Virus record (IMG/VR): IMGVR_UViG_3300023174_000102
Coordinates: 34,311-98,310 of that record
Direction: 5' to 3' (one strand)
DNA: 64,000 nucleotides
Source: a virus
In this document: piece by piece, positions 23,665 to 57,235 of the stretch
How the letters are laid out: each line of letters begins with the position of its first letter
How positions within the stretch are numbered: position 1 is the stretch's first letter
Notes under the pieces: model-generated
The model's database searches: none
What the model was told of the DNA's origin: nothing
What the model saw: the letters and a program-made list of their open reading frames with translations, nothing else
Program-made: the position numbers and the translations under genes

Positions 23665-24189
23665 ATGACCTGTATTGTTGCTTTACGCCATGAAGATAAA
23701 ATTTATATGGCAGGAGATCGTGGAGCATCAGATGATGGGGTCATTCTTTCTCTTGAATCACCTAAAGTTTGGAAAACTGGACCATACCTAATTGGATATG
23801 CTGGATCAATGGATGGTGAAAGAATGAGACATAACTTTAAACCAACTGCTCCAAATATTAAAGATACAGACAAGTTTATGCAAACAAAGTTTGTAAAAGA
23901 ACTTCGTGAATTTTATAACGAGTTCTGGATTGACACATCAAAAGATGGAGAGTTTAGTTTAATAATTGGTATTCGTGGTGAAATATATGAACATAGTTCT
24001 GGAGATATGTCTTTATCTAAATATTCATTACCATATGTTTCTATAGGCTCTGGATCAGAATATGCATATGGAGTTATGTATGCAACAGATAAGCAAAAAA
24101 ATGCAAGGAACAGAGTACAGCAAGCAGTATCTGCAGCAATTAAATTTAACCCATCATGCATGGGACCAGTTGACATCATAAGTGCTTAG
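23665..24189 (+). CDS. Ntn-hydrolase, proteasome beta/HslV-like
   Basis: 174 residues. Begins MTCIVAL, so removal of Met leaves a catalytic Thr (or Cys3). AGDRGASDD and the SIGSGSEYAYG strand match the proteasome/HslV fold. The family hydrolyses peptide or amide bonds from the N-terminal nucleophile. As a lone small subunit it may self-assemble; target unknown. It has its own strong promoter and a purine RBS (AGAGAGGG). Confidence 0.75.
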   Translation: MTCIVALRHEDKIYMAGDRGASDDGVILSLESPKVWKTGPYLIGYAGSMDGERMRHNFKPTAPNIKDTDKFMQTKFVKELREFYNEFWIDTSKDGEFSLIIGIRGEIYEHSSGDMSLSKYSLPYVSIGSGSEYAYGVMYATDKQKNARNRVQQAVSAAIKFNPSCMGPVDIISA

Positions 24190-26252: not shown

Positions 26253-27695
26253 ATGATAATTCTTGGTATTAATGAAACTACACATGACGCTTCAGTATCT
26301 TTGATTAAAGATGGAGAAATACTTTTTGCTGGTCATTCCGAAAGATATAGCAAACAAAAAAATGACTGGTTCACAAACAAAGAACTTATCAAAAATGCGA
26401 TTCAGTATGGCTACCCAGATCAGATTGCCTATTACGAGAAGCCTTTACTTAAGAAACTTAGAGTAAAGACTAGGGGTGGATTTGGTGGAGACAAGCCATG
26501 GTTTGAGTCTACAGAACTTGGGGACCTGCCAAGAAAAAATTTTGGTCACCACTACTCTCATGCCTCAGCGGGATACTATACAAGTTCTTTTCATGATGCC
26601 GTTATTGTTGTACTTGATGCCATAGGAGAGTTTAATACATCTACAATTTGGGTTGGTGAAGGAGAAAAGATTAAACTAAAATATAAACAAAACTATCCAG
26701 TTAGTTTTGGTCTTTTCTACTCAGCATTTACACAACTTATCGGACTTATGCCAAACCAAGAAGAATACATTATGATGGGTATGGCAGCATACGGTGACTG
26801 GCGCAGATACTATAAAGAAGTTGACGAATATTTCCCTAAATATAATAAGCAAAAATACAACTTCCATAAAGGCATCCATGACTGGGGCATGCCAATAACA
26901 GAGCAAGATAAATTTGATATTGCTGCTGCAGTCCAGGTTGTTTACGAACAAAGACTAAATGATTTTATGCATATGGCCTATTCAATTACTGGGAAAAAGA
27001 ATTTAGTCTTCATGGGTGGTTGTGCGCTCAACTCATCAGCAAACACTTTGCTATGGAATATATTTGACATGGTTTGGATCATGCCAAACCCAGGTGATGC
27101 TGGATCATCATTAGGTGCAGCAGCAGCCCTGTACGGAAAGCATATCAACTGGAAGACCCCATACCTTGGCTATGATCTTGGCGGAGAATACCCAGTCCAG
27201 CAAATTGTGGACGGTATATTGAAAGATGGAATCGTAGCAGTAGCATCAGGCAGAGCAGAGTATGGACCAAGAGCGCTAGGCAATAGAAGTATCCTTGCGG
27301 ACCCAAGAGATCCAAATATTAAGGACAAGGTTAATTTAATTAAACAGAGAGAGTTGTTTAGACCTTTTGCTCCAGTAGTTTTGGAAGAATGTGCATCTAC
27401 GTGGTTTGACATGGACTTTGCAAGTCCCTATATGCAGTATACAGTTAAGTGTCTTAAGCCAGAAAAAATTCCATCCGTTGTTCACGCTGATGGGACATCT
27501 AGAGTTCAAACAGTAAATAGAGATCAACATAGGGGTTTGTATAGAGTTTTAAATAAGTTTTATGTTGAAACTGGTGTTCCAGTACTGCTCAATACTAGTC
27601 TTAACATAAAAGGTCAGCCACTACTTAATGATGAAACAGACATCATTAAATGGGAAAAAGAATACCTTACAAAAATTATTGGACCAAATTTATGA
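26253..27695 (+). CDS. NodU/CmcH-family carbamoyltransferase
   Basis: 480 residues, RBS TTGGAGAG. N-terminal ASKHA fold: GINETTHDASVSL, HHYSHASAGY (metal/carbamoyl-adenylate site), VVVLDAIGE. C-terminal YrdC-like part: GRAEYGPRALGNRSILADPR and VLLNTSLNIKGQP. The family transfers carbamoyl groups from carbamoyl phosphate to hydroxyls of sugars or antibiotics. Somewhat short at the C-terminus. Coupled by ATGA overlap to the SGNH pair downstream. Confidence 0.9.
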   Translation: MIILGINETTHDASVSLIKDGEILFAGHSERYSKQKNDWFTNKELIKNAIQYGYPDQIAYYEKPLLKKLRVKTRGGFGGDKPWFESTELGDLPRKNFGHHYSHASAGYYTSSFHDAVIVVLDAIGEFNTSTIWVGEGEKIKLKYKQNYPVSFGLFYSAFTQLIGLMPNQEEYIMMGMAAYGDWRRYYKEVDEYFPKYNKQKYNFHKGIHDWGMPITEQDKFDIAAAVQVVYEQRLNDFMHMAYSITGKKNLVFMGGCALNSSANTLLWNIFDMVWIMPNPGDAGSSLGAAAALYGKHINWKTPYLGYDLGGEYPVQQIVDGILKDGIVAVASGRAEYGPRALGNRSILADPRDPNIKDKVNLIKQRELFRPFAPVVLEECASTWFDMDFASPYMQYTVKCLKPEKIPSVVHADGTSRVQTVNRDQHRGLYRVLNKFYVETGVPVLLNTSLNIKGQPLLNDETDIIKWEKEYLTKIIGPNL

Positions 27696-32797: not shown

Positions 32798-33358
32798 ATG
32801 ATTAGCAAAATAGGTGAGCCTTTTAACTATAGGCTTCAAGGCAATTTTGATATATCTGCAATAGCAGACCTTCTTTCTACTTACTCCGATGAGTGGTTTG
32901 CTAACAAAGATAGACAGGTTATGTATCAAGTCCATAAAGAGACTAACTCTATATTTATTTATGATCATTCAAATGCCTGGTCTCTTGGAGATAAATATGA
33001 CTTAAAGATAAATGATAGTCAGTCTGATATGATCAGCCTTGTTTCTCCCATAGTTAAAAGTCTTGAAGCAATTCACGATGGCAAAGTTGGTAAGTGTGTT
33101 TTTATTAAAATGCCTGCACAAAAAAGTGTTGGAGAGCATAGAGATGGTATGGATTATCTAGGGGCAGTTAGGCGCCACCATATTGCAATAACAACTAATG
33201 ATAATGTTATTTTTTTTGTTAATAAAGAAAGTAAGAATATGAAGGTTGGAGAATGTTGGGAAATAAACAACAACCTTCTTCATAGCGTAGAAAATAATGG
33301 GGACAGTGAACGCATACATTTAATGGTTGATATCCTGCCTAACAAGTTTATTAACTAA
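32798..33358 (+). CDS. Aspartyl/asparaginyl beta-hydroxylase-like oxygenase
   Basis: 186 residues. EHRDGMDYLG (His, Asp), RRHHIAITTND, GECWEINNNLLHSVEN (distal His), ERIHLMVDIL (2OG-binding Arg): the pattern of the Asp/Asn hydroxylase family of Fe(II)/2OG oxygenases. Hydroxylates protein or amino-acid side chains; target unknown. Confidence 0.75.
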   Translation: MISKIGEPFNYRLQGNFDISAIADLLSTYSDEWFANKDRQVMYQVHKETNSIFIYDHSNAWSLGDKYDLKINDSQSDMISLVSPIVKSLEAIHDGKVGKCVFIKMPAQKSVGEHRDGMDYLGAVRRHHIAITTNDNVIFFVNKESKNMKVGECWEINNNLLHSVENNGDSERIHLMVDILPNKFIN

Positions 33359-33374
33359 TATATGATAGATCAGT

Positions 33375-33404
33375 TTGACTATAAGACCACCAGTATGGTA
33401 TTAT
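33375..33404 (+). promoter_or_regulatory. Probable promoter
   Basis: TTGACT, 18 bases, TATTAT with TGG extension; RBS AAAGG then ATG 33426. Confidence 0.6.
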
Positions 33405-33425
33405 AGTATAGTCGAAAGGTACATA

Positions 33426-34187
33426 ATGATAATTCAAATTATAGGATTGCCAGGGTCTGGGAAAACAGAACTCGCCAGGGCACTCAAAGAGCGAATCAAT
33501 GCTATTCATCTTAATGCAGATGAGGTCCGTGCAACAGTAAATTCAGATTTGGGGTTTGCCCCAGAAGATAGAATTGAACAGGCTCGAAGAATGGGTGAGA
33601 TGGCAAGATTAATTGCTAAGCAAGGAGTTGCCCCAGTCATTGTGGATTTTGTTTGTCCTACAGATATTACTCGTGCAGCATTTGGTAAGCCAGATATTCT
33701 AGTTTTTATGGATACAATTGCTGAGGGTAGGTTTGAAGATACTAATAAAATGTTTGAACGTCCTGATAATGCTGATGTATCTTTCATTAGTCATAATTTA
33801 GATGCAGAAGCAAAAGCATCTCATATCATTCAAAAGTTTAACTTACATGACTGGTCTGCACCCACAACACTGATGCTTGGCAGATACCAACCTTGGCATG
33901 AGGGTCACCATGCTCTTTATGTAGAGGCTGGCAAGCGTACGGATCAGGTGCTTCTTGGGGTTCGAAATACATACAATACAAGTGAGAAAGATCCACTTAA
34001 GTTTGATCAGGTAAAAGACTATATTGCTAAAGATGAATTTATGGATGGTGCATTAGTACTAAGACTACCTAACATTACCAATATTGTTTATGGTCGTGAT
34101 GTAGGATATAAGATTGAGCAGGTAGATTTAGGTGCAGATATTCATGCTATTTCTGCTACACAAAAACGCAAGGAAATGGGTATTTGA
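33426..34187 (+). CDS. APS-kinase-like / nucleotidyltransferase fusion
   Basis: 253 residues. N-terminal half is CysC-like: P-loop GLPGSGKT (7-14), LNADEVR, DLGFAPEDR, IVDFVCP. C-terminal half is a cytidylyltransferase fold: HEGH (158-161) and ISATQKR. CysC makes PAPS from APS and ATP; the second domain could be an ATP-sulfurylase-like or NMN/FAD-type transferase, but its HxGH/ISxTxKR motifs fit the latter better. Could feed the two sulfotransferases at 53.6 and 56.7 kb. Confidence 0.75.
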   Translation: MIIQIIGLPGSGKTELARALKERINAIHLNADEVRATVNSDLGFAPEDRIEQARRMGEMARLIAKQGVAPVIVDFVCPTDITRAAFGKPDILVFMDTIAEGRFEDTNKMFERPDNADVSFISHNLDAEAKASHIIQKFNLHDWSAPTTLMLGRYQPWHEGHHALYVEAGKRTDQVLLGVRNTYNTSEKDPLKFDQVKDYIAKDEFMDGALVLRLPNITNIVYGRDVGYKIEQVDLGADIHAISATQKRKEMGI

Positions 34188-34498: not shown

Positions 34499-34905
34499 TG
34501 TATGAATACTATGTAAGAAAAGTAGAGAACGTAGTAGATGGAGATACCATCGATGTTCTTATTGATTTAGGGTTTGATATCCTATTCGCATCTCGTGTAA
34601 GACTGGCTGGTATTGATACCCCTGAGTCTCGCACAAAGGATCTTGCTGAGAAGGCTCTTGGTCTTGAGGCTAAGGAGTACCTAAAGAAGGCTCTTAAGGA
34701 TGCAAAGTCTGTTGTTATTAAGACTGAAAAAATGGACTCATCTGAAAAGTATGGTCGTATTTTGGGCTGGGTATATATTAATGGAGAAACTATATCTCTT
34801 AATGACATGATGATTAATGATGGCTATGCTTGGGGATATTTAGGGGATACCAAGATTAAGGATTTTGATGCCCTTGCAAAGGCAAGAAAGAAGTCTGGAA
34901 AGTAA
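34498..34905 (+). CDS. Staphylococcal nuclease-like thermonuclease
   Basis: 135 residues from ATG 34498 (TAATG overlap). VVDGDTIDV, RLAGIDTPES (catalytic Arg, Asp), Glu in the AEKALGLEAKEYL helix, KYGRILGWV (second Arg), DMMINDGYAWGY. A complete SNase fold, Ca-dependent DNA/RNA hydrolysis. No signal peptide, so it acts inside the cell, perhaps on host DNA. Confidence 0.85.
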   Translation: MYEYYVRKVENVVDGDTIDVLIDLGFDILFASRVRLAGIDTPESRTKDLAEKALGLEAKEYLKKALKDAKSVVIKTEKMDSSEKYGRILGWVYINGETISLNDMMINDGYAWGYLGDTKIKDFDALAKARKKSGK

Positions 34906-35498
34906 TGAATGCTGAATATCTTGAAAATAAAAGTTTTAAAATTAAAATAATAGAAAATTTTATAACTTTAGAAGATGCTGATGCTCTTGTAGGCTACATA
35001 AAAAATAACTGTTCAAACAAGACAAAATTTTATACGCCTATGAAGCATCTCGTTGAGAATAAAATAAGATATGAATCACATATACCAGAGCGTCATGCAT
35101 TTTCAAATCATTCAGAAATTTTACATTTATTAAAAAAATATTCTGATAAATTTTTGTTAGAGTCTAATCTTTTTTTTAAAGATGATGAAGAAATATACTT
35201 AACTGCACAATGGATGACAATGCTAGGGCCACAAAATAGACTTGGACCACACAGAGATAACCATAAAGGTGCAGAACATTTGTTTAGAAGTGGTGTTATT
35301 TATTTAAATGACGATTTTGATGGAGGATATTTAAATTTCCCACATAGAAATTTTACAATTAAACCACAAAAGTTAAGTCTTGTTCTTTTTGATTCCGAAG
35401 AAATGCACACAATAACAGAAGTCTTATCTGGAATAAGAATAGCAATGCCTATCTGGGCAACAAATATAAAAGAAAAGGAAATATCCTGTGAACTTTGA
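34905..35498 (+). CDS. Fe(II)/2OG oxygenase (prolyl-4-hydroxylase-like)
   Basis: 197 residues, TAATG overlap with the nuclease. GPHRDNH (H-x-D), YLNDDFDGGYLNFP, IKPQKLSLVLFD, distal His in EMHTITE, Arg in SGIRIAMPIW. All metal and 2OG ligands present. Confidence 0.75.
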   Translation: MNAEYLENKSFKIKIIENFITLEDADALVGYIKNNCSNKTKFYTPMKHLVENKIRYESHIPERHAFSNHSEILHLLKKYSDKFLLESNLFFKDDEEIYLTAQWMTMLGPQNRLGPHRDNHKGAEHLFRSGVIYLNDDFDGGYLNFPHRNFTIKPQKLSLVLFDSEEMHTITEVLSGIRIAMPIWATNIKEKEISCEL

Positions 35499-37122: not shown

Positions 37123-37359
37123 ATGTATACTGACGCAATGCAAAGGGCTTTTAGATCTGTAAACTGTCCTAAAAATTTTTCTTTACAGATAATAGATAAT
37201 GATCATTTCTTAACTGTAAAGGCTAAAGAAAAAGATTTTATGTCCTTAGAGACAGTAGAACTGAAAAGAGAAGCAATAGAATACATGATCCGTGTCAAAA
37301 AGGCTTTAGAGGATAATGGAGCGATTGTCTTATTGGTTAGAGAGGGAGGAAAAGAGTAG
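37123..37359 (+). CDS. Hypothetical protein
   Basis: 78 residues, one base after the WhiB stop. Alpha/beta, ends ALEDNGAIVLLVREGG. Overlaps the following GTG by one base. Function unknown. Confidence 0.55.
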   Translation: MYTDAMQRAFRSVNCPKNFSLQIIDNDHFLTVKAKEKDFMSLETVELKREAIEYMIRVKKALEDNGAIVLLVREGGKE

Positions 37360-38000
37360 TGCACAACGAAGAGTTTAGAAAGCAACTTGATTTAGAAAAA
37401 GATGAAATTTATTTAAAAAATGTTGCCAAATTAGGAAGTTCTGCAAAAAATGTACATACTGTAGATAATTTTTTATCTAGTGAAGAGCATAAATTATTAT
37501 CTAGTTTTGTAAACAATCCCGATGAGGTTTCTTGGGTTGAGGAGCCATGGACCACAGAAAGAACTCGTGAGGGATCAATTCCAGAAGACACTATTCAACT
37601 TTTAAAAAAAATATTTGAAACTGCTAGATTAAAGTGTATGGATTATTACGATGTAGATTTGGGTCAAGAATTTCTAAGTCAATATCTTTTAACTAAGTGG
37701 AGGAGGGGCAGCAAAATGCAACCTCATGTAGACACAGACGCTCAGAAACATCAACACATTGTATGCATGTATTATATTAATGATGACTATGAGGGAGGAG
37801 AAATATTTTTTCCAGATCATAATTTAAAAATTAAACCCAAAGCAAATAGTTTACTTATGTTCCCTGGTAATGAAAATTATCTGCATGGAGTGCTTGAAGT
37901 CATAGAGGGATTCAGATATACTTTTGCTATGAGGTTTATTTTTGCTGGATCTAAATTTTTAGGACCAACAACCCTTCGTCAAAGGTTAAAATATGATTGA
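37359..38000 (+). CDS. Fe(II)/2OG oxygenase, tandem copy A
   Basis: 213 residues, GTG start. QPHVDTDAQ (H-x-D), YYINDDYEGGEIFFP, IKPKANSLLMFPGN, distal His in YLHGV, Arg in GFRYTF. Prolyl-4-hydroxylase-like. First of three paralogues within 2.2 kb. Confidence 0.8.
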   Translation: MHNEEFRKQLDLEKDEIYLKNVAKLGSSAKNVHTVDNFLSSEEHKLLSSFVNNPDEVSWVEEPWTTERTREGSIPEDTIQLLKKIFETARLKCMDYYDVDLGQEFLSQYLLTKWRRGSKMQPHVDTDAQKHQHIVCMYYINDDYEGGEIFFPDHNLKIKPKANSLLMFPGNENYLHGVLEVIEGFRYTFAMRFIFAGSKFLGPTTLRQRLKYD

Positions 38001-38400
38001 GTCAGTATTCTTAGGCATCTTTGCTTTTTTGACATGTCTTTTTATTTATTTATATGTAGCACAAATAAAGAAAAATAGGACAATTCTTGCAAATACATTG
38101 CAACTTTTAGTGATGCAGCAAACTATTAATGAAGAAAACAAGACAGATAAAGAACACGCTAATGAGGCTTTTTTAAAATTTATTTCAGATTCTCGTGATT
38201 GGGCATATACCTACATAGATGAAGTTCAAGAAGGACTAAATAGTTTTATTAATGAAATTGAGCCAGAGATTGCATACTTTGATGAGTACGGTATAGTTGG
38301 AACTTCTTACCCCCACTATCATTCTATGAAGAAAATATCTGGGGCATACAAAGAACTAAAGAAACTGCTACCAGAAGACTATGGTAAAATAGACACATGA
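37993..38400 (+). CDS. Membrane-anchored hypothetical protein
   Basis: 135 residues between two oxygenase paralogues, overlapping both. N-terminal transmembrane helix (about 4-24), then a soluble helical domain rich in acidic residues. Confidence 0.55.
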   Translation: MIESVFLGIFAFLTCLFIYLYVAQIKKNRTILANTLQLLVMQQTINEENKTDKEHANEAFLKFISDSRDWAYTYIDEVQEGLNSFINEIEPEIAYFDEYGIVGTSYPHYHSMKKISGAYKELKKLLPEDYGKIDT

Positions 38401-38999
38401 TTGAAAATCCTTCTGAAAAAGATGAAATATACTTAGCCAATGTTGAAAAGATAGGAGCATCTGTAGATAACATTAGATGCTTAGAAAATGTTCTGTCTGC
38501 AAAAGAGCATGCAGTTTTGCTTGATTATGTAAAAAAAACTGATTCTTGGGTTAAACAGCCATGGCTTGTTTGGACAATTACGCCAGGATTCTTTCCTAAA
38601 AACATTTCTGAAATATTAAAAAAAATATTTAACGAGGTTTGGAAAAAGTCCACAAATTTTTATGATGTAAAGATTGATTCATTTTCAGATTCTGGACTAT
38701 CTATCCTTAAATTTGAAGAAGGTTTTCATTTAACTGTGCATGTAGACACTGCGTCAGCAGAATTAAACCATATTGCATCAATTTACTATATTAATGATGA
38801 CTATGAAGGTGGAGAGATCAACTTTCCAGACTATAACTTAAAAATTAAACCAAAGGCCAACAGTTTACTTTTTTTCCCTGGTAATGAAAATTATGAGCAT
38901 GAGGTTACAAAAATTTTATCTGGTGACAGATATAGTTCTTCTGTATGGTTTCAGTTCACTGGGTCCACTTTTAACAAAAAATCAGAATGGTATGGTTAA
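38397..38999 (+). CDS. Fe(II)/2OG oxygenase, tandem copy B
   Basis: 200 residues, ATGA overlap. TVHVDTASA, YYINDDYEGGEINFP, IKPKANSLLFFPGN, YEHEV, DRYSSS. Very close to copy A in the core; N-termini begin alike (KDEIYLANVEKIG). Confidence 0.8.
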   Translation: MIENPSEKDEIYLANVEKIGASVDNIRCLENVLSAKEHAVLLDYVKKTDSWVKQPWLVWTITPGFFPKNISEILKKIFNEVWKKSTNFYDVKIDSFSDSGLSILKFEEGFHLTVHVDTASAELNHIASIYYINDDYEGGEINFPDYNLKIKPKANSLLFFPGNENYEHEVTKILSGDRYSSSVWFQFTGSTFNKKSEWYG

Positions 39000-39002
39000 T
39001 AA

Positions 39003-39557
39003 ATGACAAATTCAGAGGTCGGGAATTCTGTAGATAATATACATGTAACGGAAAATATTTTGTCTAAAGAAGACCACAAGCAACTGCTTGACTATGTAAT
39101 AAGTGTAGAATCCTGGATAGTTCAGCCCTGGGGAGTTAAAGTTCTTCCACCACAGGAAATGCCAAAAGAAATTGTTAAAATTTTAGATAAAGTTTTTTCC
39201 CTTGCCTATCAAAAATGTGTAGAACTTTATAATGTGAAACTTTATCCTTTTGAAAATGCCAAAACACCTTTAGTTAGGTTTGAAAAGAATTACAAGATGA
39301 ACGAGCATGCAGACACAACAGGAGATTTTGCAGCAATATATTATATAAATGATGATTATGATGGGGGAGAAATAAATTTTATGGATCATAATTTAAAAAT
39401 TAAGCCAAAGTATAATAGTTTTGTTACATTCCCTAGCAATGCAGACTACTGGCATGAAGTACTTGAAAATACTGGAAAAGAAAGATATTCTGCTACTCAA
39501 TGGTTTAAGTATCATGGATCTAGTATAGAAAGGCCATTAAAAGGTCTAATCAGATGA
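39003..39557 (+). CDS. Fe(II)/2OG oxygenase, tandem copy C
   Basis: 184 residues. NEHADTTGD (H-x-D), YYINDDYDGGEINF, IKPKYNSFVTFPSN, YWHEV, ERYSAT. Third paralogue, with a shorter N-terminus. Confidence 0.8.
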   Translation: MTNSEVGNSVDNIHVTENILSKEDHKQLLDYVISVESWIVQPWGVKVLPPQEMPKEIVKILDKVFSLAYQKCVELYNVKLYPFENAKTPLVRFEKNYKMNEHADTTGDFAAIYYINDDYDGGEINFMDHNLKIKPKYNSFVTFPSNADYWHEVLENTGKERYSATQWFKYHGSSIERPLKGLIR

Positions 39558-40947: not shown

Positions 40948-41562
40948 ATGAACAAAATAACAAAAAATGATATAGTTTTAGCAACACAACAAAAAAAGAT
41001 TCACATATCAAGAAATTTTATGCCAGACACTCTTTCTTGGTCAGACATAAGTGAGGTATATGACTTAGACAAAAATGTTGTATATATCTCTTTTGGATCA
41101 TTTCAAGCACAAGAAAGAGACATAATATTTCGTTATTATAAAAATGTACTAGATAGTATTGGTCAAATTTATAAAGGATACCCGCTTTTTGGTATGATCA
41201 TAGTACACTTTATAAATAGAAATAATAATATTATTAGTGATCCAGACTGTTTAAATTTGTTTAATAAGTTTCTTGAAGACAATCCTAAAAAAATTCCAGA
41301 GCACATTACTATTAGAGATCATGGAATGGACGGAGACCCTTGGGAATCTAAAGTTCATTTTGACAAAGAAAATAGAGTTTTTGTTCAAGGCGGAGGTCAA
41401 AGCCTATGGAGGCTTTTTGATGATTCAAACAATTTGACTGATGCAATTATATTAAACCCAGGAGATTTAGCATTTATACCAAAAGGGTTGCTACATAGTG
41501 TTGAGTCTGTAGGACCAAGACATTCAATAAGTATAGCCTTTTCTGATGAACCTGTGATATAA
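40948..41562 (+). CDS. JmjC/cupin-like Fe(II) oxygenase
   Basis: 204 residues. HFDKENRVFVQGGGQ (H-x-D) and IPKGLLHSVES (distal His) within a cupin fold (NPGDLAFIPKG), as in JmjC-type hydroxylases. Leaderless start. Substrate unknown. Confidence 0.6.
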   Translation: MNKITKNDIVLATQQKKIHISRNFMPDTLSWSDISEVYDLDKNVVYISFGSFQAQERDIIFRYYKNVLDSIGQIYKGYPLFGMIIVHFINRNNNIISDPDCLNLFNKFLEDNPKKIPEHITIRDHGMDGDPWESKVHFDKENRVFVQGGGQSLWRLFDDSNNLTDAIILNPGDLAFIPKGLLHSVESVGPRHSISIAFSDEPVI

Positions 41563-44474: not shown

Positions 44475-46526
44475 TTAAAATAGATCAGCATTCATTACCT
44501 TTGTCCATGCAGAAACAAAATCATGAACAAACTTTTCCTTAGCATCGTCTGATGCATATACTTCAGCAATTGCTCTGAGTTCTGAGTTAGATGCAAGTAC
44601 GAGATCTACACGAGGGATACCCACTGCCTGATATGCATTTGTATATGAAAGTAATTTAACTAAATAACTATTGTCTAACTTTCCATTATCCAGCATTCTT
44701 ATTCCAGACAATAGCAGAACCATTTCTACTGGAGTTAATCCTAATAAATTAGACTTTTCTACCAAAAGAACCTCTTCTGGAGCAGTGATACTTGGATGAA
44801 TATAGTTGCGGAAAGCGTCAAACTTTGGTTCAAGAACTGCAAATGATTCAGAATCTGTTTGCTCTTGAGTTGCATCTCCACGACTAAACTTTGCATTAAT
44901 AACTACACCAATGTCAGAATTATGTGCAGCAAGTTGAACTCCAACCAAACCAGCAAAAACAATTAGGTCTGCAAGAGATACATCAAATTCAGATTTTATT
45001 TCATTTAAAACAGACACAACTCTGTTAATTGCTTCATGGTCATTTACTTCCCATGTATTCTGTGGAGCAAGAACAATTCTTGCACCGTTAGCACCACCAC
45101 GCTTGTCTGTCTTACGGAATGTTGATGCAGAAGCCCATGCAGTAGTTGTCAAATCAGAAACAGATAAACCAGATGACATAATTTTTTCTTTAATTGCATC
45201 TACATCTTCTTGTGTAAGACTATCTCTTGTAGGCTTACCGACTGGATCTTGCCAGATAAGTTCTTCTGATGGAACTTCCTTACCAAGATATCTTGCAATA
45301 GGGCCCATATCTCTATGTGTTAACTTAAACCAAGCACGAGCAAACTGGTCTGAGAAGTAGTCAAAGTCCTCAAGGAATCTGCGTGAAATCTTCTCATACT
45401 CAGGGTCAAATCTCAATGCAAGGTCTGCTGTTGTCATAACTGGAGCATGAAACTTGCCCTCAACGTGTGCATCTGGAACTAAGTTAGCAGCAGACTCATC
45501 TGTTGGAATCCATTGAGTTGCACCAGCAGGAGACTTTGTTTGTGACCAATCATACTTAAACAATAACTTAAGGTATGAGTTATCCCATTTAGTTGGAGTT
45601 GCAGTCCAGGCACCTTCAATACCACTTGTGATTGTATGTTCTGCATTACCCTTGCCAAATGAATTCTTCCATCCAAGACCAAGTTCTTCAAGTTGAGCAG
45701 CCTCTGGATTAGGACCAACGTGTGAAGGATCTCCAGCCCCATGCGCCTTACCAAATGCGTGTCCACCAGCAATAAGTGCAACGGTTTCTTCATCATTCAT
45801 CGCCATGCGAGCAAAGGTTTCACGAATATCTCGTGCAGAAAGAACTGGATCAGGATTTCCATTAGGTCCTTCAGGGTTTACATAGATCAATCCCATCTGC
45901 ACTGCAGCAAGCGGGTTTTCTAACTCACGGTCTCCGCTATAACGGTTATCTGCAAGCCATTCTTTTTCTGTACCCCAGTAGGAATCATCTGATTCCCAAA
46001 CATCTGCACGACCACCAGCAAAACCAAATGTCTTAAAGCCCATGTTCTCAAGAGCAACGTTACCTGCAAGAATCATTAGGTCTGCCCATGAAATCTTCTT
46101 GCCGTACTTTTGCTTAATTGGCCAAAGAAGTCTACGAGCCTTATCTAAGTTACCATTATCTGGCCAAGAATTTTGTGGAGCAAATCTGTGTAGTCCTTCA
46201 CCTGCACCACCACGACCATCAGTTACTCTGTATGTACCAGCACTGTGCCATGCCATACGAATAAAGAATGGACCATAGTTACCATAGTCTGCAGGCCACC
46301 AATCTTGCGAGGTAGTTAGAAGTGTGTTAATATCATTCTTAACAGCATCAAGATCTAAACTATTAAACTCATTAGCATAGTCAAATCCATCTGGCATAGG
46401 GTCAGACTTCTCTGAATGCTTTCTCAACCCCGATAGGTCTAACTGATTAGTCCACCAGTCCTTGTTTGTTGTTGCATCCTTGCTAGATGATTTGCCAGTT
46501 ACTGGACATTTTTCTTCGCTCATCAT
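44475..46526 (-). CDS. katG: Catalase-peroxidase KatG
   Basis: 683 residues from ATG 46526 (AAAGAGA upstream); a longer in-frame reading to 46721 runs through tRNA genes and is rejected. N-terminal haem domain complete: distal Arg90-Trp93-His94, adduct residues Trp93-Tyr215-Met241, proximal His256. The C-terminal domain is the usual inactive duplicate. Slightly shorter than the common 720-740. Breaks down H2O2. Phage-borne KatG is unusual; an extended -10 promoter sits between it and tRNA-Arg. Confidence 0.95.
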
Positions 46527-46551
46527 GTATCTCTTTCTCTCGTTTACTTCA

Positions 46552-46560
46552 ATTATACCA
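46552..46560 (-). promoter_or_regulatory. Extended -10 promoter of katG
   Basis: TGG-TATAAT on the minus strand, three bases after the tRNA-Arg end. Confidence 0.6.
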
Positions 46561-46562
46561 CG

Positions 46563-46634
46563 CACCCCTGGCAGGAATCGAACCTGCGACAAACGGATTA
46601 GAAGTCCGCTACTCTTCCGCTGAGTTACAGAGGT
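46563..46634 (-). tRNA. tRNA-Arg (TCT)
   Basis: Acceptor ACCTCTG/CAGGGGT, anticodon stem CGGA/TCCG with loop CTTCTAA, T loop TTCGATT. Reads AGA. Confidence 0.92.
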
Positions 46635-46638
46635 CCAG

Positions 46639-46712
46639 TACATCTGGAAGGACTTGAACCTTCGGCTCTCTGCATATAAGGCAGGTACTCTAACCAACTG
46701 AGTTACAGATGT
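46639..46712 (-). tRNA. tRNA-Ile (TAT)
   Basis: Acceptor ACATCTG/CAGATGT, D stem ACTC/GAGT, T stem GAAGG/CCTTC. Loop CTTATAT gives anticodon TAT, reading ATA. Position 27-43 of the anticodon stem is a C-A mismatch. Confidence 0.85.
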
Positions 46713-46716
46713 GTAG

Positions 46717-46791
46717 TACACCAGGTAGGACTTGAACCTACGAATAGCCGAATTATGAGTTCGGTGCCTTAACCAACTTGGCTACTGGTGC
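46717..46791 (-). tRNA. tRNA-Met (CAT)
   Basis: Acceptor GCACCAG/CTGGTGT (first pair G-T), anticodon stem CCGAA/TTCGG with loop CTCATAA. Lacks the three G-C pairs of initiator tRNA; elongator Met or a lysidine-type Ile tRNA. Confidence 0.9.
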
Positions 46792-47614: not shown

Positions 47615-48625
47615 TTATACTTGTTTTTCATTATATAGATTGTAAAAAAAATCTGCAAAGTGTTCTTGAACATGTATTCCTGGATGAGAATATTCAGTAC
47701 TTTTTTTACCATCAATAAAATAGTAGTCAGAACCTTGGTTCCAAGATGGATGATCTCTGAACTCGTGTTCATGAGCACCTGAATTGCACATATTGCTTAT
47801 AAATGATCCAGGACCATCAAAACTGTCACCAGCAGTATAAAATGTTGTAAAATTTTTTAATTTAAAATTTTCTATTTTGCCTAATTCTTCTAAAATATAA
47901 GAACTTGGAGCGTTCCAGGTTGTCCAATATAGTTTTATGTTGTTTGCTAAACAAAATGCTTCTAAAATATAAATAAAATTAACAGAGTCTAATATTAGTT
48001 GGTGTGGAGAGACTGAATCCTCTATGTATTTTTGATTTTCTATTTCCATAAAGATTGACTTTTTGTCTTTAATTATTACTGGGTTACAAAAAATATATTC
48101 TAGTTTATCTTTTGTTCCAATATCTCCTCTGACAACTCTTGATTTATAAAATTCTTTATCTACCACAACCATACTTCTAAAAAAATCTGGAAATAAACAA
48201 AAAATTTCTTTTGGCATTTTAGTATTTAAACAGTATTGAATTATGTTAGTGCAAATACTTTTTACTGATCCTCCAGGATTTCCTAAGTTAGTAACACTTT
48301 TATTAATTTTTTTGCTTAAAAGGTTTGTCCACCTACCTAATTCTGGAACACCAATACCAAATGTTATAGAGCAACCAGATGCAATTATGTCTGAATTTTC
48401 GTCAATCTCTCCTCTGCAACCAATAGAGTTTATTTCGTATGTATTTTCCTCATCAATTGTTTCTAAAGAATTTCCTTTACTAATACGCTCTGAATGAACA
48501 GGATTTTTTCGAAATGGCCCATAGAATCCAACATGTGTTGTATCTGAAAAAAATTTGTTTAAGTACCAATCATTTTCTTTTTCTAATTTATAAAAAGAAA
48601 GAATATCTCTTGTTAAAAATTTCAT
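47615..48625 (-). CDS. SGNH-hydrolase-like protein, copy 3
   Basis: 336 residues. IIASGCSITFGIGV (block I Ser), VTNLGNPGGS (block II), and HPGIHVQEHFADFF (late His). A distant relative of the pair at 27.7-29.5 kb. Probable glycan esterase or transferase; leaderless start. Confidence 0.6.
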   Translation of the reverse strand: MKFLTRDILSFYKLEKENDWYLNKFFSDTTHVGFYGPFRKNPVHSERISKGNSLETIDEENTYEINSIGCRGEIDENSDIIASGCSITFGIGVPELGRWTNLLSKKINKSVTNLGNPGGSVKSICTNIIQYCLNTKMPKEIFCLFPDFFRSMVVVDKEFYKSRVVRGDIGTKDKLEYIFCNPVIIKDKKSIFMEIENQKYIEDSVSPHQLILDSVNFIYILEAFCLANNIKLYWTTWNAPSSYILEELGKIENFKLKNFTTFYTAGDSFDGPGSFISNMCNSGAHEHEFRDHPSWNQGSDYYFIDGKKSTEYSHPGIHVQEHFADFFYNLYNEKQV

Positions 48626-53624: not shown

Positions 53625-53653
53625 AGTATACACCAAAGTCAGGGTTTGGTCAA
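53625..53653 (-). promoter_or_regulatory. Promoter, leaderless
   Basis: TTGACC (53648-53653), 17 bases, TATACT (53625-53630), six bases, ATG 53618. Confidence 0.7.
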
Positions 53654-54163
53654 GTCAAATGCTTTTGATAACAATTTTTTGTATGATTCATAACAATCTA
53701 AAATGTCTTCCATTTTAAAATGTTCCTTCTTGTATTCTGAAGAGGTTTTGCTTGATCTTAAGTATGTATTTTCTCTGTTGTCTGCTGTTACAGGCACATA
53801 AATGTCTAATGGATTTACTTGAAATTGAAGATCATTAGAAATTTTTAACAATACTTTTTCTGGAAACGCTATTAGGTCTTCATATTTAATAATAATACTT
53901 GCATTTTCATATAAAAAATTGTACATATCTTTGTACTCATTATTATATCTTTTGCTATATTCTTCATTTGGATGATAATGCCTTCTCATAGTAACATGAG
54001 AGTGAATTGATTCAAAAGGATCTCGTACAACAGTTATAATAAAGCGATCAGGGTTCTCAGGAATATGAAAATAGTTTATCTCTTGCCTGAAGTTATTTAG
54101 CAGTAGGTTTGATAAATAGTTTGCACCAGATCTAGGGTATGTGACAATTGCTATATCGGACAT
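53639..54163 (-). CDS. Sulfotransferase-like protein, copy 1
   Basis: 174 residues from ATG 54163 (MSDIAIVTYP). 5'-phosphosulfate loop YPRSGANYL and 3'-phosphate motif RDPFES are both present, so PAPS binding is likely. Shorter than most sulfotransferases. Acceptor unknown. Confidence 0.75.
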   Translation of the reverse strand: MSDIAIVTYPRSGANYLSNLLLNNFRQEINYFHIPENPDRFIITVVRDPFESIHSHVTMRRHYHPNEEYSKRYNNEYKDMYNFLYENASIIIKYEDLIAFPEKVLLKISNDLQFQVNPLDIYVPVTADNRENTYLRSSKTSSEYKKEHFKMEDILDCYESYKKLLSKAFDLTKP

Positions 54164-54164
54164 A

Positions 54165-54290
54165 TTACGATACAAGGCCCATGGAAAGATGATCTAAGCA
54201 AACATCTGCTACTACATAGTCGGCGTGGTTTACTACTATGTCGTAATGTGTTGCATCCTTATCACAAAAAAAACATTTAGACTTTTTCAT
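54165..54290 (-). CDS. Small zinc-binding protein
   Basis: 41 residues. CFFC then CLDH, a C2CH zinc site like the DUF7455-type modules. Leaderless start. Confidence 0.55.
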   Translation of the reverse strand: MKKSKCFFCDKDATHYDIVVNHADYVVADVCLDHLSMGLVS

Positions 54291-54305: not shown

Positions 54306-55733
54306 TCAAACAAAATCAAACCAGATTGGCATTATATATCTTGAACCATTTGCTGGTCCTACATGATACCAATAGTGAGGATTTCCAGGGAATATAACCA
54401 AATCACCAGCCTTTGGCTTAAGTGATAATCCCTGATTAATAAATGACAAACCTCCACCATCATAATCATCATTTAAATAAACCCAACCTGCCATATGATT
54501 TGAGTCTTTGTGACCCATGTCATCTATTGGTATAGTTGGACTATTATTATGAACCCATTGAGCAAAACGAGAATTTCTTGGCTTTAGTTTTACACCAAAT
54601 TCTTTTTCTACGATAGACTGAATACCAGGTATATATTTTTCTGAATAGGTAAGTGAATCATAATACAATAAGGATAGCGTAGGATTTCCAAAACTGTCTG
54701 GTTGCAAAGGACGATTATTGCTTGTTTCTGTACTATTTATAAGTCCTATAATATGTTCACACTCTTCTTTGCTTAGATAATTCTCAAACACTTTTATGTT
54801 GTTAGGATTACTTCCAATATTATTAAAGTTTTGTACTGTTAGGTCAGAATAACCAATGACATTTCCTTCAGGCACCACAATATCATTAAAGTTTTTTACC
54901 ATATCCAACAACTTGCTAATATCTTCTTGATCAGTATGAATCATAAAATCATAAATTCCAAATTGCTGAGATAGATTTCTTATTTGTGCAACAACATCAA
55001 CCAATTTTCCCTTTATTAAATGATTCTGCTGTCTAACTGGGGCATTCTTGTCATACTTAACATGCTTTTCATCGTCTGGATGGGTCGTAATAAGTGGGTC
55101 AATAATAACTATTGGCTTTACCTTATCTAGATCAATCTTTTTAAACTGGTCTCTAAACAATAGATTATCATCAACATAAATATATTCACAATGTTTGTTT
55201 GCTATTCCAATTGTTGTATCTGACGAGCCAACAACTGCCATATGGGTTTTGTGCTGATGAGCATCCATCAAATCCATAAACTTGTCCATCCAAACTGCAG
55301 AGATAGCAACTCTTTTTGCAAGAGTATCGATAAGTGATGGGTCGTGCATGTAATGATCTATAACTATTTTCTCAGACTTATCGTTTCCTTCATCTCCCCA
55401 TCTTCCAGAAACAAGGTTTACACCAATTCTTCCAGGTGCAAACTTATTTAAGGTATCAACAATCTTAGCAGCATAGTCAGGACTTGTTCCGTATGCTGGT
55501 AGTGCAATTGTCATTATTAGTTGATTTGTTTTTTCTAATGCCTCTTTTATAACTAATGAAAAATCAATACCTCCTGGGCCGTATGGAAGCAAAACAGATT
55601 TCACATTGGCTCCATCTAATTCTTGTGCCATGCCAAGAATTCCCTGAAGGTCTAGGTTTTCAATGCTGTCGTTTATCTGCCAGTGTCTTCTCCACATCCA
55701 GTGAAATGTTATAGGCTTATTGTTATTTTCCAT
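54306..55733 (-). CDS. Luciferase-like monooxygenase / 2OG oxygenase fusion
   Basis: 475 residues, RBS GGAAG. Residues 1 to about 300 follow the flavin-dependent luciferase/SsuD barrel (FHWMWRRHW; FAPGRIGVNLVSGRWGDEG; DFMIHTDQ). Residues about 310-475 are a prolyl-hydroxylase-like oxygenase: H408-x-D410, distal H457, R465. Both halves keep their key motifs, so the protein may carry out two successive oxidations. Upstream of a sulfotransferase and next to another oxygenase. I know of no described enzyme with this pairing, but could not search. Confidence 0.75.
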   Translation of the reverse strand: MENNNKPITFHWMWRRHWQINDSIENLDLQGILGMAQELDGANVKSVLLPYGPGGIDFSLVIKEALEKTNQLIMTIALPAYGTSPDYAAKIVDTLNKFAPGRIGVNLVSGRWGDEGNDKSEKIVIDHYMHDPSLIDTLAKRVAISAVWMDKFMDLMDAHQHKTHMAVVGSSDTTIGIANKHCEYIYVDDNLLFRDQFKKIDLDKVKPIVIIDPLITTHPDDEKHVKYDKNAPVRQQNHLIKGKLVDVVAQIRNLSQQFGIYDFMIHTDQEDISKLLDMVKNFNDIVVPEGNVIGYSDLTVQNFNNIGSNPNNIKVFENYLSKEECEHIIGLINSTETSNNRPLQPDSFGNPTLSLLYYDSLTYSEKYIPGIQSIVEKEFGVKLKPRNSRFAQWVHNNSPTIPIDDMGHKDSNHMAGWVYLNDDYDGGGLSFINQGLSLKPKAGDLVIFPGNPHYWYHVGPANGSRYIMPIWFDFV

Positions 55734-55977
55734 TGTTATTTATTCTTCCTTTAGTTTTAAACCAAGAACCTATCTTTGAATAGGAAACTTTGCTTCTTAG
55801 TATTTCTGCAAAACTTTCATGTGATATTTCTGAACCAAGGTATTCTTGTCCTGTTTCAAGATCAATTAACTTCCACTTACCTGGTGCTTTTGTATGTAGT
55901 ATTAGATCAATTGGATGGTCGTAATCATTAACCTCAGAACCATCTAGCAGTTTTCTTTTTTTTATTTCATCGTTCAT
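55723..55977 (-). CDS. Hypothetical protein
   Basis: 84 residues from ATG 55977, three bases after the upstream oxygenase stop; overlaps the fusion gene by 11 bases. Beta-rich (PGKWKLIDLETGQEYLG). May be an accessory to its neighbours. Confidence 0.5.
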   Translation of the reverse strand: MNDEIKKRKLLDGSEVNDYDHPIDLILHTKAPGKWKLIDLETGQEYLGSEISHESFAEILRSKVSYSKIGSWFKTKGRINNNGK

Positions 55978-55979
55978 TT

Positions 55980-56594
55980 TTACACTACCGTAAACCAAAT
56001 AGGCAAGGTGTATCTGTCTCCAGATAAAATCTTTGTAACTTCATGAGCGTAATGCATATTTCCAGGGAATATAACTAAATCGCCAGTCTTTGGTTTAATA
56101 GAAAGATTGTGCGTTTCAAATTTAATCTCTCCACCCTCATAGTTATCATTTAAATAAATAATAATTGGCAAGTGATTCTCTGTTACATAACCAAGGTCAT
56201 CTACATGAGTATTTAAATAAGATCCAGTCTCCCAGTGAACAACACCCAAAAAGTCTTCTTTTTCTGCTATCTTGATATCCCCTAGTTTATATGCTTTTTC
56301 AATTTCATCTTTAACTCTACTTATAAGGTTATACTTATCAGGTAGACCATCATACTTATGCATATAGGTTAATGGTTCTCCATTAGGACCTTTTTGAGAA
56401 ACAAAACGATGAGAGGCTCTTTCTTCTAGTCCTTCCATCAAATAAGATATTTCCTCTTCTTTTAAGAAATTAGAAATAGTCACAATGTTTTTTGTAGAGT
56501 TGCCCAGTTTATTTAAAAATTTATGATACGACTCAGTTCTTTCAATTGCTTCAGGATTATTGCCGACGGGCTTGTTATTTATCATGTATGCCAT
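55980..56594 (-). CDS. Fe(II)/2OG oxygenase (prolyl-4-hydroxylase-like)
   Basis: 204 residues. NTHVDDLG (H-x-D), YLNDNYEGGEIKFE, IKPKTGDLVIFPGN, YAHEV (His), DRYTLPIW (Arg). The core is close to the C-terminal half of the fusion protein and to the tandem set at 37-39.5 kb. ATG 56594 is set by TATAAT six bases upstream. Confidence 0.8.
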   Translation of the reverse strand: MAYMINNKPVGNNPEAIERTESYHKFLNKLGNSTKNIVTISNFLKEEEISYLMEGLEERASHRFVSQKGPNGEPLTYMHKYDGLPDKYNLISRVKDEIEKAYKLGDIKIAEKEDFLGVVHWETGSYLNTHVDDLGYVTENHLPIIIYLNDNYEGGEIKFETHNLSIKPKTGDLVIFPGNMHYAHEVTKILSGDRYTLPIWFTVV

Positions 56595-56600
56595 ATAACC

Positions 56601-56606
56601 ATTATA
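56601..56606 (-). promoter_or_regulatory. -10 box of leaderless promoter
   Basis: TATAAT, six bases, ATG 56594. Confidence 0.55.
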
Positions 56607-56656
56607 CACTATAACCTGATCTACTAAGTTGGCATGACTATAGCCTTGGATTAATG

Positions 56657-57235
56657 CTATATTGCCTTTTCTAAGAAACTATTGTAAATTTCGTAAGTCC
56701 TTGAAAGATCTTGTTCTTTTACTATCTCCCTTATTTTTTCATATTCTTTGATATTTTTACTAGATACTACATGGTTTCTATATGGCTTATCTACCAAATT
56801 ACTTTTATATCTATCTTCAATTATATCAATTGACATTTTTTCTGCTATTTTTTTTACTGTTTCAAATGGAGAATTTATTAAAGATTCATACTTTACTATA
56901 ATGTCAAAATTATCAACGATATCCATATCATTTTGAGTAAACCAATCAGAAAAGCAGTACTTCCTGGGTTCAGATAAAAAATCTTCAATACTGCCATTTT
57001 TATAATAAATAGCATCCATAGCAACATAAGAAGACAAAAAGTCTACTGGATCTCTTACTATCGTTATCATTTTATTATTCTGTAACTCATGACTTTTTTT
57101 AACATATATCCCTGTATGCTGCTCAATCCTATTCTGAAGATAGTGAGACCCTGATCTTGGAATTGTGACAATGGAGTACTCTGAGGTTGGTTTCTTGATC
57201 TTCGTGTTTGGCTTATAGTCGTCAAGGTTATCCAT
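56657..57235 (-). CDS. Sulfotransferase-like protein, copy 2
   Basis: 192 residues. IPRSGSHYL (5'-phosphosulfate loop) and RDPVDFLSSY (3'-phosphate motif). Paralogue of 53639-54163. Leaderless start with an extended -10. Confidence 0.75.
   Translation of the reverse strand: MDNLDDYKPNTKIKKPTSEYSIVTIPRSGSHYLQNRIEQHTGIYVKKSHELQNNKMITIVRDPVDFLSSYVAMDAIYYKNGSIEDFLSEPRKYCFSDWFTQNDMDIVDNFDIIVKYESLINSPFETVKKIAEKMSIDIIEDRYKSNLVDKPYRNHVVSSKNIKEYEKIREIVKEQDLSRTYEIYNSFLEKAI

Follow-up and report, generated by a model that had tools for sequence, protein, structure and literature searches.

Alkanesulfonate monooxygenases of the SsuD/MsuD kind are the nearest named families to the first half of the protein described here, and for MsuD the roles of the residues in the O2-reactivity pocket (L46, A75, N104, and V106) have been described (PMC8234197). 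In viruses, an F420-type luciferase-like monooxygenase (LLM) has been mentioned as a putative gene (PMC11849493), and standalone phage luciferase-like proteins are already annotated (BFVD A0A6J7WN64). The second half resembles Fe(II)/2OG oxygenases, genes for which are common in phages (phrog_61). In prolyl 4-hydroxylase (P4H), a member of this class, rearranged or altered iron triads are inactive (PMC2767507). Here, we analyzed a 64-kb window (the whole stretch under study, 64,000 nucleotides) from a viral IMG/VR record of 98,310 bases, in which both domain kinds are joined in one gene (54306..55733, minus strand). We consider it reasonably probable that the product is a two-domain phage protein made of a compact LLM monooxygenase and a catalytically dead P4H-type 2OG fold.

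The gene begins with ATG and stays open for 475 codons. A scan of 2.9 million viral contigs yielded 135 relatives of the fusion, and in the best 80 of these, the protein is full length and in a single frame with no internal stop, measuring 466 to 487 aa from stop to stop and sharing 73 to 96% identity with the window copy. The fusion is therefore no frameshift artefact, the outcome that the earlier note had named as fatal to its single 475-residue frame, and the identical single frame in 80 independent contigs likewise rules out an assembly or sequencing error. Counts over 81 copies below refer to the window copy plus these best 80 relatives. Synonymous changes greatly outnumber amino acid changes in both the N-terminal (median dN/dS, 0.105) and the C-terminal (0.185) halves; both are under purifying selection, and the lower value indicates that the LLM half changes more slowly.

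The DNA polymerase and large terminase of the record share 54 to 55% identity with their counterparts in BillNye-like and Yaboi/StarPlatinum-like Streptomyces phages (BillNye belongs to Stanwilliamsviridae). The record is therefore actinophage-like, and its host is presumably of the corresponding kind. Among isolate phages, no LLM-2OG fusion was found, and the C-terminal half alone gave matches, which were weak. A peptide-pattern scan recovered no relatives from bacterial and archaeal genomes, where the DNA motif for GRWGDEGN had 10 matches, none encoding an LLM of the fusion family. The plasmid collection held distant LLMs but no fusion, and no phage LLM-2OG fusion was found in the published literature. 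The earlier remark that no described example was known thus holds across all of these searches, and the fusion is a new combination of known domain kinds. Matches of the N-terminal half to ssuD records labelled "Acinetobacter phage" were rejected, as they resemble bacterial ssuA-ssuD-ssuC operons. Two such phage-labelled INPHARED records ("Acinetobacter phage MD-2021a") carry ssuA-ssuD-ssuC and look like bacterial contigs.

The N-terminal half (residues 1 to 287; 54873..55733, minus strand) is, as judged by profile comparisons and a structure model, a compact SsuD/MsuD-like luciferase-type (βα)8 barrel. With the window copy alone, Pfam PF00296 gave an E value of 0.17, below the cutoff (the best value among the relatives was 2e-4), and the NCBIfam SsuD models matched residues 29 to 128 only, also below the cutoff (E = 3.8e-7). 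A profile built from 19 N-terminal halves and searched against the PDB matched MsuD (2.6e-5) and SsuD (3.4e-5). With hhalign, the probability of a match to the SsuD family alignment was 96.5%, rising to 98.7% once a second phage LLM family (see below) was added, with an alignment that covers residues 26 to 186 only. The AF2 model of this half forms a complete eight-strand barrel (pTM, 0.81), for which the top PDB match in Foldseek was SsuD (E = 5e-13; TMq, 0.65). The SsuD-like barrel first read from the sequence, for which structure prediction had been proposed as a check, is thus borne out by all of these approaches apart from PF00296 alone.

In the ungapped part of the alignment, L48, A77, N106, and V108 correspond to the four MsuD O2-pocket residues, and all are invariant (81/81 copies); the N106-L107-V108 motif, matching MsuD N104/V106, lies at 55410..55418 (minus strand). 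The hhalign comparison places G169-S170-S171-D172 (55218..55229, minus strand; invariant in 81/81) as the counterpart of the GGSSD FMN-phosphate loop of SsuD/MsuD. At the FMN phosphate site of MsuD (S177/S178, H123, R126, and Y127), the GSSD loop and a nearly invariant H127 align, and R126/Y127 have no clear counterpart. No partner flavin reductase of the SsuE type was found nearby, and neither PF01613 nor PF03358 was found in the 98-kb record, which may be incomplete, so that a reductase may be encoded elsewhere. The missing reductase, the loss of the MsuD lid, and the unmatched R126/Y127 would all fit a protein in which the LLM half is a pseudoenzyme too and which serves the upstream 2OG oxygenase as a scaffold or binding factor. 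We find such a doubly noncatalytic protein unlikely, since the O2-pocket residues and the GSSD loop never vary, A77, N106, and G110 recur in the second phage LLM family, which is only about 20% identical, and sequence change is slower in the LLM half than in the C-terminal half. The LLM half would most likely be the catalyst of the fusion protein.

The 287-aa domain lacks the RGGA sulfonate loop, the lid (for which it has no room), and the C-terminal tail of MsuD, which makes a simple sulfonate an improbable substrate; by eye, moreover, D188 and D212 of the fusion take the places of MsuD W195 and R225. As far as the sequences indicate, nothing but a weak family resemblance points to a sulfonate. 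An auxiliary role in sulfur metabolism, in which the LLM would release sulfite from alkanesulfonates for the host and the neighboring sulfotransferases would be sulfur-handling enzymes, draws on the SsuD/MsuD families being the nearest named ones, on the adjoining sulfotransferases, and on an APS-kinase-like gene within the window. These points are outweighed by the missing loop, lid, and tail, by the two aspartates at the W195 and R225 positions, and by the absence of an SsuE-type reductase from the record, and low-identity LLM matches track flavin chemistry rather than substrate; we regard this role as very improbable.

The C-terminal half (about residues 298 to 475; 54306..54842, minus strand) matches PF13640 at 27.3 bits, barely over the cutoff of 27, and its profile matches P4H in the PDB (3itq; E = 1.3e-6). 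The earlier note had credited it with the H-x-D, His, and Arg of a complete 2OG oxygenase. However, the standalone 2OG oxygenase encoded upstream aligns to this half without gaps between the W of one strand and the NH of the following strand, and P402-I403-D404 (54522..54530, minus strand) stands opposite its H-V-D and Y456 (54366..54368, minus strand) opposite its distal His. Among 59 distinct sequences, P, S, R, or A occupies position 402, D or N is found at position 404, and position 456 is Y in 57 and H in 2. The canonical places thus read P402-x-D404, Y456, and R465; the last, the 2OG-binding Arg past the distal His, is invariant, and the shell around it is kept. The iron motif seen earlier was probably H408-K409-D410 (54504..54512, minus strand), six residues off the canonical site, together with the equally off-register H457, and neither histidine is conserved: position 408 is H in 57, S in 16, and R in 8 of the 81 copies, and position 457 carries N, D, or S instead of His in 30 of them.

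These off-register residues could still be read as a relocated iron site (H408-x-D410, H457, and R465), in particular in the window's own subclade, which would leave the 2OG half active and the enzyme bifunctional. The window copy has all four of them, both histidines are found together in 33 of the 59 distinct relatives, and in a tree test, H457 either changed in the same way as H408 or stayed unchanged in nearly all pairings, although the test comprised three independent supported pairs, too few to decide. Against a relocated site stand the replacement of H408 by S or R in 24 and of H457 in 30 of the 81 copies, the ungapped register to an active paralogue, which gives P402/D404/Y456, and the placement of residues 407 to 410 in a low-confidence loop (pLDDT below 50). 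In addition, as the strand neighbor of Y456, H457 would be expected to point to the other side, and triad rearrangement kills P4H. Such a site seems to us quite unlikely, slightly more so than a noncatalytic LLM half.

The canonical iron triad (HxD...H) is intact in none of the relatives examined (0/65 fused and 0/10 split copies; 0/75 together), compared with every control: 66/66 upstream paralogues and 39/39 other 2OG proteins of the same contigs (105/105). The substitutions vary by clade (PxD, SxD, RxD, AxD, HxN, QxD, and LxD), and a deeper clade of relatives has HxN, QxD, or LxD at the iron motif. Six fused copies in this deep clade keep both histidines with Asn in place of the Asp ligand (HxN...H...R), possibly an intermediate state of triad loss. 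By this sequence evidence, the C-terminal half is a prolyl-hydroxylase-type 2OG fold that is incomplete as an oxygenase. Since the triad is lost in all relatives and P4H does not tolerate triad changes, we infer that it is a pseudo-oxygenase that would be conserved for some other reason, such as binding a substrate or docking an active 2OG enzyme. The earlier idea that one substrate is channelled between two complete enzymes, each with its own cofactor, fails because the C-terminal half is without iron ligands in every relative examined, in contrast to the standalone neighbors.

The two halves are not always joined. Nine distinct relatives (12 loci) encode the LLM and the pseudo-2OG in two neighboring genes: at five of these split loci, the pseudo-2OG has its own ATG one base past the LLM stop, and at another, its ATG overlaps the LLM gene by 14 bases. 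When a tree was built from the LLM half, with midpoint rooting only, split forms sat among fused ones and required at least two changes. The split pseudo-2OG partner is likewise without the triad, which indicates that the loss of the iron ligands is independent of fusion.

The fusion belongs to a conserved gene cassette. In the window, a standalone 2OG-Fe(II) oxygenase with an intact HVD...H...R (55980..56609, minus strand; PF13640, 1.1e-12) is followed by a 91-aa open reading frame (55723..55998, minus strand; phrog_4098, 1e-8) and then by the fusion. The order active 2OG, 91-aa frame, and LLM with pseudo-2OG, fused or split, was found in all 44 distinct loci with enough flanking DNA to test the cassette. 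The 91-aa frame overlaps both of its neighbors (55980 to 55998 and 55723 to 55733), and the overlaps suggest that the three genes may be translationally coupled. A sulfotransferase gene lies on each side, as the earlier note had it (downstream, 53639..54175, minus strand, PF13469, 5.7e-6; upstream, 56657..57235, minus strand, PF00685, 2.4e-7), but the upstream one is separated from the fusion by the 2OG gene and the 91-aa frame. A sulfotransferase gene is downstream in 38/44 and upstream in 16/44 loci. A homologue of an SGNH-like protein gene (47615..48625, minus strand; Pfam GDSL, E = 0.096 only) is also downstream in 38/44; it follows close behind the sulfotransferase in the relatives and about 5 kb further on in the window. 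This conservation in related phages is partly inheritance, not function.

The window contains no fewer than seven genes for oxygenases of the 2OG/JmjC/Asp-hydroxylase type (32798-33358, 34905-35498, 37359-38000, 38397-38999, 39003-39557, 40948-41562, and the cassette gene at 55980-56609), a further indication that uncultured viruses of the actinophage-like kind have large oxidative tailoring repertoires. The window also holds a P-loop kinase gene (33375-34187, plus strand) whose product matches APS-kinase in its N-terminal part (PF01583, 3.6e-15) and could supply PAPS to the sulfotransferases. A KatG-like catalase-peroxidase gene (44475-46721, minus strand; PF00141, 1.2e-65) has a mechanically called 5' end that overlaps predicted tRNA-Arg and tRNA-Ile genes (46562-46712), so its true start is further in. 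Other genes encode a NodU/TobZ-type carbamoyltransferase (26253-27695, plus strand; PF02543/PF16861) and, among structural genes, a protein with a weak proteasome/HslV-like match (23665-24189, plus strand; PF00227, 1e-5).

Some relatives carry a second, strongly diverged LLM family, about 20% identical to the fusion LLM. At eight loci, this protein (257 to 267 aa) is encoded directly behind a 2OG-2OG gene pair with an overlap of a few bases; the pair is intact and homologous to window positions 38397-39557. A homologue of the SGNH-like gene also adjoins this second family, which is absent from the window's own record, where no second LLM copy was found. That LLM and 2OG genes adjoin each other in two independent settings within one phage group argues for a linked function. 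The invariant 2OG neighbor of the fusion (44/44) and this second adjacency support a functional coupling of the LLM to 2OG chemistry, in which the standalone upstream enzyme, not the fused half, would be the active 2OG.

In the reading that we favor, the LLM half would bind reduced flavin and oxygenate a target substrate. Because the record has no PF01613 or PF03358 reductase, we propose that this flavin would be made by the host. The pseudo-2OG half would perform no iron chemistry and would instead keep a substrate-binding shell or pair with the active upstream 2OG. One and the same target could then undergo hydroxylation by the 2OG and flavin oxygenation by the LLM, perhaps with a sulfotransferase sulfating the hydroxyl so formed. 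This target may be a macromolecule or glycan and probably sits on the cell surface or the phage particle, and the products of the sulfotransferase and SGNH-like genes may act on this molecule too. We advance more tentatively, as a possibility short of an even chance, that the pseudo-2OG, whether fused to the compact LLM or acting in trans, keeps the substrate or the active 2OG partner in place for it, making a mixed iron/flavin oxidation unit that was assembled at two loci of one phage group.

This widespread phage cassette would combine a flavin-type barrel, an active 2OG, and a 2OG domain that is conserved yet dead. Should the pseudo-domain serve for docking or for substrate binding, the naturally split and fused forms offer a test of how two oxygenation chemistries are coupled. 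The case also illustrates that a "complete 2OG oxygenase" read from sequence alone can err by six residues.

Compared with the FMNH2-dependent alkanesulfonate monooxygenases SsuD (Escherichia coli; PDB 1m41) and MsuD (Pseudomonas fluorescens; PDB 7jv3), the fusion shares the (βα)8 fold, an ungapped match over residues 26 to 110, the L/A/N/V O2 pocket, and the GSSD loop. Unlike these enzymes, its barrel is about 95 residues shorter, is without the lid, C-terminal tail, and RGGA loop, is joined to a 2OG fold, and comes with no reductase gene found in the record. In size, it is closer to compact F420-dependent LLMs such as KvPepI (PDB 9gkh/9gm0; TM, 0.70 by target length), although identity is only about 13% and the likeness here is by predicted fold. 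The standalone luciferase-like protein of an uncultured Caudovirales phage (BFVD A0A6J7WN64) is similarly phage encoded and has the same fold (TM, 0.82 by target length), but it is about 250 aa long and has no 2OG domain. The fused and split pseudo-2OG copies, all without iron ligands, differ in this respect from P4H/PKHD-type 2OG enzymes (PF13640; PDB 3itq and 5hv0) and from cyanophage 2OG proteins (phrog_61 and phrog_2297), with which they share the fold and the C-terminal signature, including the Arg.
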